In this document: positions 35,164 to 37,749 of the stretch, piece after piece | Numbering within the stretch: position 1 is the stretch's first letter | How the letters are laid out: every line of letters starts with the position of its first letter | Source of the DNA: Flavobacteriales bacterium | GTDB taxonomy: Bacteria; Bacteroidota; Bacteroidia; Flavobacteriales_D; Sanyastnellaceae | Length of the DNA stretch: 41,414 bases | Assembly (NCBI GenBank): GCA_002862785.1 | Contig: PKDZ01000025.1 | Coordinates: forward strand, 1 to 41,414 | Reading direction: 5' to 3' | Notes under the pieces: model-generated | Told to the model about the DNA's origin: nothing | Database searches by the model: none | The model's input: the letters and a program-made list of their open reading frames with translations, nothing else | Made by a program: the position numbers and the translations under genes

Positions 35164-36031
35164 AACTGTGGACCGGTTCCGGGTCCTCCTGTCCTGTCCC
35201 GACCGTCGGGGCATTGTGGCCGAAGTCAGCCGACTGCTCGCCCAGCAGGGAGCCAATGTGACGGCGGCGGCCCAGTTCACCGACCCCGCCTCTCACCAGT
35301 TTTTCGTCCGCTATGAGGTGGAGACCCATTCCGGCTCTGTCACGCCCACCTCGCTCCAGATTGGATTGGCTTCCGGGTTGGCGGACCTTCTGCAGCAGCC
35401 AAATGCGGAACTTCTTGTGCGCCGGGCGGATCACAAGCCACGCGTCGCCCTCCTCGCCTCCAAGGCCAGCCATTGTCTGGTGGAGGTCCTGCAGCGTTGG
35501 CGAACCGGAGAATTGCCATGCGACATCGTGTGTGTCATTGCCAATCATCCGCACATCGAGGAGTTCGCCGGATGGTTCAAGGTGCCGTTCCATCATGTGG
35601 ACTTTCCGGTGGGCGAGAAAGCGGTCGCCTTTGCCGAAGTAGAGTCCATCCTGCAACGGGAATCGATCGACGTGACCGTGCTCGCCCGGTTTATGCAAAT
35701 CATTCCCGACTCGATGGCCGAAGCGCACCGCGGCCGGATGATCAACATTCACCACAGCTTCCTGCCTTCCTTTGTGGGGGCCCGGCCCTATGAGCAGGCG
35801 CACGCCCGGGGGGTCAAGCTGGTGGGGGCGACGTGTCACTATGTGACGCCCGAGTTGGATCAGGGCCCCATCATCGACCAGGAAGTCGTTCGGATTTCCC
35901 ACCGGGATTCCGCCGCGGATTTGCGCCGCAAGGGCCGCATCTGTGAGCGGGAGGCGCTGGCGCGCGGCCTTCGGCTGCATCTCGAGGACCGCGTCTTCGT
36001 CCATGGCAACCGGACCGTCGTCTTCGACTGA
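35153..36031 (+). CDS. purU: Formyltetrahydrofolate deformylase
   Basis: A 292-residue enzyme that hydrolyses 10-formyltetrahydrofolate to formate and tetrahydrofolate, supplying formate for PurT-type purine synthesis and balancing the one-carbon pool. An N-terminal ACT domain (about 8-90; RVLLSCPDRRGIVAEVSRLLA) is followed by a formyltransferase-type catalytic domain with N198-I-H200 in MINIHHSFLPSF, and D236 in ELDQGPIIDQEV. Further PurU segments are CDIVCVIANHP, LARFMQIIPDSM, GARPYEQAHARGVKLVGATCHYVT and EREALARGLRLHLEDRVFVHGN. The ATG at 35153 gives the usual length. It overlaps the CxxCH gene by 11 bases, so the two are co-transcribed. Confidence 0.93.
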   Translation: MANETVDRFRVLLSCPDRRGIVAEVSRLLAQQGANVTAAAQFTDPASHQFFVRYEVETHSGSVTPTSLQIGLASGLADLLQQPNAELLVRRADHKPRVALLASKASHCLVEVLQRWRTGELPCDIVCVIANHPHIEEFAGWFKVPFHHVDFPVGEKAVAFAEVESILQRESIDVTVLARFMQIIPDSMAEAHRGRMINIHHSFLPSFVGARPYEQAHARGVKLVGATCHYVTPELDQGPIIDQEVVRISHRDSAADLRRKGRICEREALARGLRLHLEDRVFVHGNRTVVFD

Positions 36032-36078
36032 TCTCGTTTTCCCTTCTTCTCCGTGCTGGTCCTCGGACGAAACAGGGC

Positions 36079-36136
36079 AAAAAAAGAAATCCGCACCGTC
36101 CAGTCCGGGCGAGGCCCTTTCCTTCGTGTGCGGATT
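36079..36136 (-). terminator. Strong minus-strand terminator with no protein gene in front of it
   Basis: A 9-bp perfect stem (36088-36096 and 36128-36136) with an inner GGGC/GCCC hairpin in its loop. It is followed on the minus strand by TTTCTTTTTTT (seven T at 36079-36085). No minus-strand protein gene ends nearby; the closest is the exported protein ending at 37000. It therefore most likely ends the candidate non-coding RNA at 36079-36853. Confidence 0.7.
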
Positions 36137-36853
36137 CTTCCGGGCAAGAACCACCCTGGGGTGTTCTGCTCACAGGGGAACGGGGGGGTTCCCTGCGCTG
36201 CGCCGTTCTACGGGCGCCCCGAACCTTCGGATGTTGGTCGTGGCTTGGTCGATGACCAACGTTTATCCCGTCAGCACCCGGACGACCGGAGTCGTCTCAG
36301 TCCACCCGGTTTCCCGTGTGGGTCAGACGAACAGCGTGAACTGTCCGCCTCTAGCTGTCGGGGACGCTTTGCCTTGCGGCAGCCTTTCCCTTGATCCGTT
36401 GGCTACACTCCCTGTCCCGAGGGGCGGGGAATGCCGGCCTCCGTCGCCTGTCAGCTGGAGGCCTTCCGTTTGGCTCCGGTAAACCAGTTCCAACACCGTC
36501 CACTCTCCGAGGAAAGGTCGTCCGCTCGCGCGGCCGACGCCTTGTTGCCGAAGCAACCCGGCCGAAGCCGGTGGCGGGGGTGCCTCTTTCGTTCCGGATT
36601 GGGACAAGTCCCTCTAGGCGCCGGGCCCCACCCATTCTCAGGGTGCCTTCTCGTCCGAGGACGGCTCGAAATCGCCTTCGCGACTCCGGTCAGGTGCTCT
36701 TTCGATCACTCTCCTCCAGGTTGCCCTGTCGGTTTCGACGCCATTCGGTTGCCCGTCCCTCCCGGAGGAAGACCCTCAGCCGAAGCGTTGGGTTGTCGTC
36801 GCTGACACCACAAGGGTGGGGCAGAATTTTGGATTGACCTGCATCGTCAGGTC
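36079..36853 (-). ncRNA. Candidate large structured non-coding RNA (about 0.75 kb)
   Basis: This gene-free region contains at least 15 short hairpins. Minus-strand loops include two adjacent C(UUCG)G tetraloop hairpins (36544-36557, 36558-36571), GAAA (36302-36321), GCAA (36370-36381) and GCGA (36517-36538). Others are at 36147-36167, 36176-36193, 36219-36230, 36245-36259, 36281-36296, 36436-36463, 36601-36612, 36629-36645 and 36836-36853. Extra-stable UUCG and GNRA loops appear in this sense only when read on the minus strand, which agrees with the terminator. Open frames here in both strands are Arg/Ser/Pro-rich, as expected of GC-rich non-coding DNA. I did not find the GAGGAAAGTCC or ACAGAA cores of RNase P, nor a tmRNA tag or tRNA-like end. 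The 5' end is a guess, somewhere between 36836 and 36930. Confidence 0.55.
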
Positions 36854-36882
36854 TGAAGTGTTTCACAACGAAAACACAAGGG

Positions 36883-36902
36883 TTTTCCACATTTGTGGAT
36901 AC
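36883..36902. promoter_or_regulatory. Inverted pair of DnaA-box-like 9-mers
   Basis: TTTTCCACA (36883-36891) and TGTGGATAC (36894-36902) face each other. Each differs by one base from the consensus DnaA box TTATCCACA. Together they make a TCCACA-TT-TGTGGA palindrome just upstream of the candidate RNA. Two boxes alone do not make an origin; they may be a regulator site or a 5' hairpin of the RNA. The remaining bases 36903-36999 hold nothing recognisable. Confidence 0.3.
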
Positions 36903-36999
36903 CGCGTTTCCCTCTCGGCAACGCACCGTGAAAATACAATCTCCCCCGCTCCGAACCATGGCCCGAGGCGGGAGAGAGGCGACGTCTACAAAAAAGGTG

Positions 37000-37191
37000 T
37001 CAGTGCGTCACGACGAACCGGGCGCTGCCGTGCTTCACGCCCTGCGTGCCGTCCAGCGCGGAGAGGGTCCAGCTGATTTCGCTGCCCCATAGGGCGGTGG
37101 TGGTGGAGATCTCGGCTTCCAGCAGGCACTCGTCCTGGGCTTGGATGGCCAGTCCTGCGAGGAGCAGGACGGAAAGGAGAAGGTGGCGCAT
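37000..37191 (-). CDS. Small exported protein (63 aa)
   Basis: A 63-residue protein with a clear signal peptide (MRHLLLSVLLLAGLAIQAQ) followed by a short mature part starting DECLLEAEISTTTALWGSEISW and ending SARFVVTH. The mature part looks like the first beta strands of a larger secreted domain, so it may be a truncated copy rather than a complete small protein. The frame extends 13 codons further upstream, but the ATG at 37191 gives the normal leader. No homologue is recognised. No hairpin terminator was seen, although a TTTTTT run follows the stop. Confidence 0.5.
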   Translation of the reverse strand: MRHLLLSVLLLAGLAIQAQDECLLEAEISTTTALWGSEISWTLSALDGTQGVKHGSARFVVTH

Positions 37192-37254
37192 GGATCTCAG
37201 ATCGAAATCAAAACCAGAGTGGTCATGCAAAGTTGCGTCGAACAGAAAAAATCG

Positions 37255-37749
37255 TCATTGAACGGAGTCGGCCTGTCCAACGAAGTTGGCTTGTAGGATG
37301 CGTCGGAGGTAGTTGGCCTGCCCCGTATGGCGGGAAAGGTGGCCACTCAATTGAATGAGGAAGAAGCGGACCGTCCGTCCGGCGTGGTGTGGGGGAGGTG
37401 ACGGCATGAGCGCGTCCAATCGTTTGGGGTCCAAGTTGGCCAGTGCGGCCTCCACGGCGTCCTGGGCCCGTTTGATTTCAGCGAGGATCTCTTCCTTGGG
37501 CAGGGGACGTCCCGAAAACTCGTGTTCCCGTTGCCGCACATAGCCATCGTCGCCAAGGTGGTGTCCGATGAAGTGGCGCAGATTGCCGCACAGGTGGACG
37601 GCGAGGGTGCCGACCGAATTGGTGACGCCGGGCACGCTTTCCCAAAGGAGGTCATTCGGGGTCGCCTGCACCTCTGCTGCCAGAGCGCCGAGGTCGCGCG
37701 TGAGGATGTGGCGGAGGTGATCGAGTTCGGGAGGGGTCCTGTCGGTCAT
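37255..37749 (-). CDS. DinB-family protein (DUF1572-like)
   Basis: A 164-residue four-helix-bundle protein of the DinB/YfiT superfamily. His residues suitable for metal binding lie in the expected places (VHLCGNLRHFIGHHLGDDGY near residues 50-70, and LIQLSGHLSRHTGQANYLRR near 130-150). Several superfamily members are thiol-dependent transferases, for instance using bacillithiol or mycothiol, but many have no known substrate. The ATG at 37749 is fixed by its ATGA overlap with the upstream sulfotransferase stop; the longer frame is not used. No thiol-synthesis gene is present in the window. Confidence 0.82.
   Translation of the reverse strand: MTDRTPPELDHLRHILTRDLGALAAEVQATPNDLLWESVPGVTNSVGTLAVHLCGNLRHFIGHHLGDDGYVRQREHEFSGRPLPKEEILAEIKRAQDAVEAALANLDPKRLDALMPSPPPHHAGRTVRFFLIQLSGHLSRHTGQANYLRRILQANFVGQADSVQ

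Follow-up and report, generated by a model that had tools for sequence, protein, structure and literature searches.

The locus and its coding content

In the window (the whole stretch of 41,414 nucleotides that was analysed), a gap is flanked by purU, which ends at 36031, and by the next minus-strand ORF, which encodes 76 aa (37230-37000). The initial annotation had described about 0.75 kb of noncoding DNA between purU and this small gene, and the gap is indeed present, with no protein family over cut-off. Seven ORF translations overlapping it were compared with Pfam, of which none passed its cut-off (best E value 0.04), while six ORF intervals were uninterrupted in 4, 7, 6, 6, 11 and 4 of 14 aligned relatives, the one open in eleven being a 177-nt stretch. 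A protein encoded in the gap was rejected on this negative Pfam result together with the ORF intervals broken in the aligned relatives. The following features were delimited:

36862-36902, minus strand: promoter-like element, made up of the near-palindrome TATCCACAAATGTGGAAAA (also given as TTATcNACAATTGTNGATAA) and, always equally far behind it, two TGT repeats
36079-36857, minus strand: large structured RNA gene of about 780 nt, conserved and covarying in 15 aligned sequences of the genus, with one copy found in the genome
36836-36854, minus strand: 5' hairpin (alignment columns 13-31), with 5 of 5 pairs changed on both sides and only 71% of cells paired
36778-36823, minus strand: 5' stem-loop with the near-invariant TGTCAGC(A/G)ACG(A/G)CAA at 36793-36814, from the alignment and the consensus structure
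36466-36664, minus strand: central multibranch domain (columns 217-434) of the consensus structure, with CCTGAGAATGG (36630-36644) and two UUCG hairpins (36544-36571)
36224-36402, minus strand: long arm with branches (columns 502-690); it includes the GCCGCAAGGC hairpin (36371-36380), and its helices 34-38 show numerous two-sided changes
36139-36223, minus strand: 3' junction (columns 691-777) with a hairpin loop carrying a C run conserved in the genus (36173-36196)
36079-36138, minus strand: terminal hairpin and U run (AAGAATCCGCA ... TGCGGATTTCTTTTTTT); this part and the promoter are the best conserved when genera are compared

The feature extends slightly past the coordinates first given for it, with helix 1 starting from 36854 and the promoter-like element lying beyond; the 5' end of the RNA at about 36857 is inferred from the promoter geometry. 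The terminal hairpin has the stem TCCGCA/TGCGGA, followed by the U run, and recurs across genera. Within the genus of the source genome (g1) some single-stranded stretches are invariant.

The 76-aa ORF (37000-37230, minus strand) matches, at 44-49% identity over 26-45 aa, the start of proteins of 699-1009 aa that are encoded next to the RNA in four relatives; a T9SS sorting tail was shown for two of these proteins. Judging from these matches, it is probably a truncated remnant of a longer protein.

Folding and strand

The minus strand folds with a minimum free energy of -358.6 kcal/mol, against -321.7 +/- 7.3 in 20 dinucleotide shuffles (z -5.04, with 0 of 20 as low), while the plus strand of the gap reached a z of -0.74, with 4 of 20 shuffles as low. 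The hairpins of the minus strand thus exceed what chance would give, and the two adjacent C(UUCG)G hairpins lie exactly where, and on the strand on which, they had been placed by the initial annotation. In 194 pairs common to the predictions for both strands, GU cells outnumbered AC cells (145 versus 96), which together with the z-scores of the window favours the minus strand.

The folding analysis was extended across genera with 14 shuffles per sequence, and 18 of the 22 prepared sequences were run (L005, L009, G018 and G029 were left out). The strand leading from promoter to terminator gave z-scores of -3.9 to -10.9 in nine sequences belonging to g1 (two), g3 (one), g5 (four) and g14 (two), each with none of 14 shuffles as low and always more extreme than the other strand. 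In G004, a deep branch of g1, the two strands were not distinguished (z -2.35 versus -2.43). Eight stretches from other genera and families, described below, were divided: G091, G084, G140 and G053 favour the promoter-to-terminator strand by z, and in G027, G030, G157 and G213 the opposite strand folds better.

Covariation and consensus structure

The genus alignment contained 15 loci of about 800 nt, including the window's own and one partial locus (L010), which was excluded from one later analysis and from the group tests; L017, L028 and every locus that matched over less than 40 bp had been dropped before the first alignment. RNAalifold predicted 168 pairs, 89 of which had at least one change on both sides, and 226 consensus pairs in 47 helices when combined with RIBOSUM scoring. 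Both-side changes occurred in 122 of these 226 pairs, compared to 83.9 +/- 4.1 in 500 shuffles. In the same consensus 89.2% of the cells were paired, against 34-44% with slid partners, and the covariation score was 0.385 versus 0.188 in shuffled and 0.066-0.099 in slid controls.

A tree-aware test in the manner of R-scape was also applied, using an APC-corrected G-test and a null in which the inferred substitutions were replayed along the tree at random places. With 14 sequences of the genus, 21 of 229 pairs were significant at p<0.001 (0.23 expected), and slid structures yielded 0-2. As the circularity of a predicted structure was a concern, structures were predicted anew for 16 simulated alignments, which gave 0-2 pairs at p<0.001 versus the 21 real ones, and structures from single-sequence folds (five tried) were used, with which 10-16 pairs still reached this level. 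The RNAalifold energy was -435 for the real genus alignment and between -168.5 and -217.4 in the 16 simulated ones. A test of all column pairs in the 14 sequences, which has little power, returned two significant pairs, one of them in the structure, and a search for pseudoknots among the unpaired columns (stems of at least 4, 85% paired) found none.

The group tests were limited to g1, g14 and g3, so that four g5 sequences were not included, and they excluded G114, G120, G127 and G129 (split, of odd length, or missed by the motif pattern). The nine g14 sequences gave only one pair at p<0.001 (0-2 in simulations) and 14 at p<0.01 (3-9 in simulations), and the six g3 sequences gave two (0-1) and eight (1-6), respectively, so that at p<0.001 both groups were roughly level with their simulations. 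The consensus energies of both groups lay beyond those of all 16 simulated nulls.

A conserved RNA secondary structure at this locus is therefore well supported: compensatory changes in related genomes are abundant and, in the genus, above the controls. A GC content of 58-65% yields many short inverted repeats, from which the region might be read as no more than chance hairpins in GC-rich DNA, but the shuffle, slide and simulated-alignment controls are all exceeded in the genus. The covariation controls refute this reading, to which we give practically no weight.

Distribution and neighbouring genes

The terminal hairpin and the promoter element were found in all 16 other g1 genomes examined. 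The region was recovered by blastn in 15 of these at E values up to 1e-6 (only its promoter part in G002) and in G004 at 0.02. For the last 166 nt, a model (R1) was derived from the 15 aligned g1 loci and run against 114 genomes of the family, where it matched its 15 source genomes at E<1e-30 and, outside g1, gave weak matches (E 3.5e-7 to 0.013) in eight g3, three g5 and eight g14 genomes.

A second model, R2, represents the terminal hairpin across genera; the 16 sequences that went into it come from g1, g3, g5 and g14, and matches to these are expected by construction. At E values of at most 1e-7 it was present in 17 of 17 g1, 8 of 11 g3, 4 of 22 g5 and 11 of 14 g14 genomes, and no further genome was found at this threshold among 399 of the order, a search whose strict filters lose weak matches. 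The source genome contained one strong match. Among 395 genomes of the phylum, R2 at E values of at most 1e-5 gave one match besides the source genome (G672, 6.3e-6). Two R2 matches outside the four genera, G380 (2.8e-7) and G019, were the only ones checked and were both rejected as lacking the promoter. A Nitrospiraceae contig (L088) with the terminator pattern was likewise set aside as a chance match inside an open frame of 157 codons (R1 E value 0.02).

The distance from promoter to terminator varies from about 640 to 1,080 nt across genera, words of at least 8 letters are common between genera only at the two ends, and sequence similarity of the body is as weak as the R1 matches outside g1 indicate. 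This bears on the possibility that the RNA is catalytic, an undescribed ribozyme, for which its size, branched architecture and invariant residues at junctions could speak. Catalytic cores are usually better conserved than a molecule of which only the ends share such words between genera, and there is no Rfam ribozyme or intron match either; we consider a ribozyme quite unlikely.

In g1, six of eight loci had the DUF4920-side genes of the window downstream and four of eight a T9SS-type-related gene upstream, the neighbourhoods having been judged partly from ORF ends; G002 and G004 had other neighbours. In g3 and g14 an AprA-type methyltransferase gene and tRNA-Arg(acg) flank the RNA at six of six loci, and in g5 other flanking proteins were found, partly of PKD and T9SS type. 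The site between the AprA-type gene and tRNA-Arg was also inspected in 36 other genomes: eight had the methyltransferase gene, and among these only G029 (g14) carried the RNA element and tRNA-Arg in the flanks inspected, which did not include a second piece from G031 (L137).

In two g5 genomes (G101 and G102; L163 and L164) the element is followed by an RNA-like stretch of about 720 nt that has another terminator, ending in GGCGCGGTT and a T run. The z-scores of these stretches were -3.9 and -4.8.

The promoter-like element and its resemblance to DnaA boxes

The element, of about 45 bp, aligns by eye without gaps in 35 sequences of the four genera. It has a single match in the window, and the palindrome is the sole match in the genome assembly at up to 3 mismatches. 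A longer pattern of the element was present in 60 of the 114 family genomes, compared to none of 114 for the reversed-pattern control. From the start of the TTG in ACAATTGT (which reads ATG in the window) to that of the last TTGTG there are 24 bp, a spacing that fits the Bacteroidota promoter consensus -33 TTTG / -7 TAnnTTTG (PMC7366714), with a partial match to TAnnTTTG. A pattern scan of the window for sigma-70 promoters and terminators, designed for promoters of the E. coli type and for terminator loops 3-8 nt long, detected neither the promoter nor the terminator of the RNA.

The palindrome can be read as two inverted sequences like DnaA boxes (TTATCCACA/TGTGGATAA-like), going by the DnaA box consensus. 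Binding of DnaA is thus inferred from resemblance alone, and no oriC of the lineage was compared. G027 consists of a single contig, and no dnaA was seen among the ORFs of its first 6 kb.

The draft genome G014 contains two copies of the promoter element, on contigs C24 and C30, one of which is identical to that of G015. This is perhaps a mixed assembly.

The element beyond the four genera

Nine genomes of g7, g8, g9, g12, g15 and g16 (L146-L148, L151-L156) carry the element beside a queE-like gene, with about 180-420 nt of noncoding DNA separating the two. In G027 the best family matches of this gene were QueE models, below their cut-offs. The arrangement could suggest that the RNA is a leader or riboswitch of a neighbouring gene, as the queE-like gene lies downstream in sense in seven of the nine genomes. 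In G027 and G092, however, it is convergent; in the window the downstream gene is the convergent purU, and a terminator hairpin closes the RNA. We regard a leader as most improbable.

The noncoding stretches of G027, G030 and G079 have CCATCCATGTCCA in common, with one difference in G091.

Six genomes of families f3, f4 and f8 (L193-L198) have unannotated noncoding DNA behind the element. GAGAGATA follows 95-97 nt after the element in all six, and in four of the six AACTGTA occurs where a stretch of about 420-520 nt nears its end. A PIN-PhoH2-like gene lies beside the element stretch in G157, G140 and G053. In genus g29 of family f9 (G363, G267, G221, G332 and G349; L188-L192), the element is located 35 nt before a dnaB frame in all five matching genomes; the DnaB family match was made in one of the five. 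Other matches of the element, for instance in G022, where the region looked coding-like by eye, are probably due to chance.

The stretches in other genera and families share the promoter element, and their homology to the body of the window RNA has not been shown. It is conceivable, although we think it rather doubtful, that a fast-evolving RNA exists throughout the order under a DnaA-box promoter common with the dnaB of another family. Flavobacteriales would then have a replication-coupled RNA particle, represented in one lineage by the RNA of about 780 nt and in others by the stretches of about 180-520 nt by queE-like and phoH2-like genes.

Comparison with known RNAs

No family of Rfam 15 reached its gathering score in the window. 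At E values up to 10, positions 35900-37300 gave two noise matches only (E 8 and 4.3). In the relatives (12 loci, G004, eight loci of other genera and six of other families) only tRNA genes passed the Rfam cut-off, and what fell below it was noise. The covariance models of GOLLD, ROOL and OLE found nothing in 35900-37300 at E values up to 10, and nothing in 12 loci of relatives at E values up to 1. With no known class matched at the locus, the initial proposal that the minus strand encodes a structured RNA not recognised so far is supported by the fold, the covariation and the Rfam search alike.

Known stand-alone structured RNA genes include those of tmRNA and RNase P RNA. As had been suggested from the lack of their core motifs, the locus is neither, since both were located elsewhere in the source genome: the genome's one match to RNase P RNA (RF00010) lies at G000:C26:532-875 (189 bits) and a tmRNA match over cut-off (RF00023) at G000:C8:40151-40553 (138 bits), with no ARAGORN prediction in the window. 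6S RNA, which is also a stand-alone noncoding RNA and measures about 200 nt, had no Rfam match in the window, and neither did any group I or group II intron model. A riboswitch or cis leader was rejected on account of the convergent purU downstream.

Among large RNAs, one source (PMC12286853) describes GOLLD as ornate, in many cases longer than 800 nt, more conserved in its 3' than in its 5' region and often near tRNA genes. In the same source ROOL, likewise large, ornate and noncoding, has no known function, assembles with RNA as the only component and is also often near tRNA genes. As far as that description goes, the window RNA is like GOLLD in its large size, ornate fold, better-conserved 3' region and frequent proximity to tRNA. 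GOLLD is encoded by phages and prophages, whereas the window RNA is single-copy, without phage relatives found and without an Rfam match; ROOL is phage- and prophage-linked, and again the window RNA has no Rfam match. OLE RNA is a large structured bacterial RNA of about 600 nt in a ribonucleoprotein (RNP), mainly of Gram-positive extremophiles. The likeness lies in being a large structured RNA; an RNP role of the window RNA is inferred, and it has no Rfam match.

These likenesses raise the question of an origin from a phage, plasmid or intron, as a GOLLD- or ROOL-like RNA or a degenerate group II intron. Its size is similar to that of GOLLD, and tRNA-Arg adjoins it at all six g3 and g14 loci scanned, in keeping with the tRNA proximity of GOLLD and ROOL in the same source (PMC12286853). 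In addition to the missing Rfam match, however, blastn at E 0.01 returned no match when run against 50,697 records of phages and 72,556 of plasmids (the flanks were not searched for prophage), and the three best model matches among 14 viral contigs with the terminator pattern fell in long open coding frames. The single strong match in the genome and the spread along related genera also argue against such an origin, which we judge very unlikely.

The locus meets the description of an independent structured noncoding RNA gene, having a covarying structure, a promoter-like element, a terminator and no conserved protein. No description of a large RNA of this lineage was found in the literature searched, which did not cover subscription papers. 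A transcriptome study of Flavobacterium psychrophilum lists, besides four known RNAs, 85 independent transcripts that were new and had a median length of 176 bp (PMC9723704). Judged by sequence comparison, the RNA class is new, with no homology to any Rfam 15 family; large ornate noncoding RNAs, taken as a loose kind, are not without precedent.

Interpretation and proposed mechanism

We propose, with a probability of roughly 0.7, that the locus encodes a new class of large ornate RNA that serves as a folded scaffold or RNP core and is possibly linked to replication; its transcription, function and control by DnaA are inferred. The differing neighbours between genera, the RNA's own promoter-like element and its terminator point to a trans-acting gene. 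That the RNA is transcribed alone and acts in trans as RNA, rather than as a leader or mRNA, is an inference made without expression data, which we nevertheless hold with considerable confidence. The promoter-like element would drive a stand-alone minus-strand transcript that ends at the terminator hairpin.

As structure and not sequence is kept while the size drifts from about 640 to 1,080 nt, the folded body may be the functional part of the molecule, the scaffold of a ribonucleoprotein or of an RNA-only assembly; we see the odds of this inference as evenly balanced. It could act as an RNP scaffold, as compared with OLE, or as an RNA-only assembly, as compared with GOLLD and ROOL (PMC12286853).

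Alternatively, the RNA could be a base-pairing regulator, in which exposed conserved loops (the TGTCAGCAACGACAA region and the C-run loop) pair with mRNAs or other RNA while the remainder serves as a carrier. In favour of this are the single-stranded stretches that do not vary within the genus and the presence of a C-rich loop, a common seed of bacterial sRNAs; yet the C run is missing or replaced in those g3 and g5 matches whose alignments cover it, and size and structure appear far beyond the needs of a seed. We find this alternative unlikely, if less so than a ribozyme, and retain the folded scaffold or RNP core as the preferred reading.

If DnaA bound to the promoter at its inverted TTATCCACA/TGTGGATAA-like boxes, expression would be coupled to replication and the dose of the RNA tied to DNA replication. 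This part of the proposal is tentative and in our opinion has somewhat less in its favour than against it, being inferred without binding data.

To our knowledge, few bacterial RNA classes of such size and complexity are known, and OLE, GOLLD, ROOL and raiA each started work on RNA structure or RNA particles. The present RNA adds a case in which, in four genera of Flavobacteriales, the fold is kept while sequence and length drift, and its promoter carries a mark hinting that the RNA is linked to DNA replication, an idea that lends itself to direct testing.
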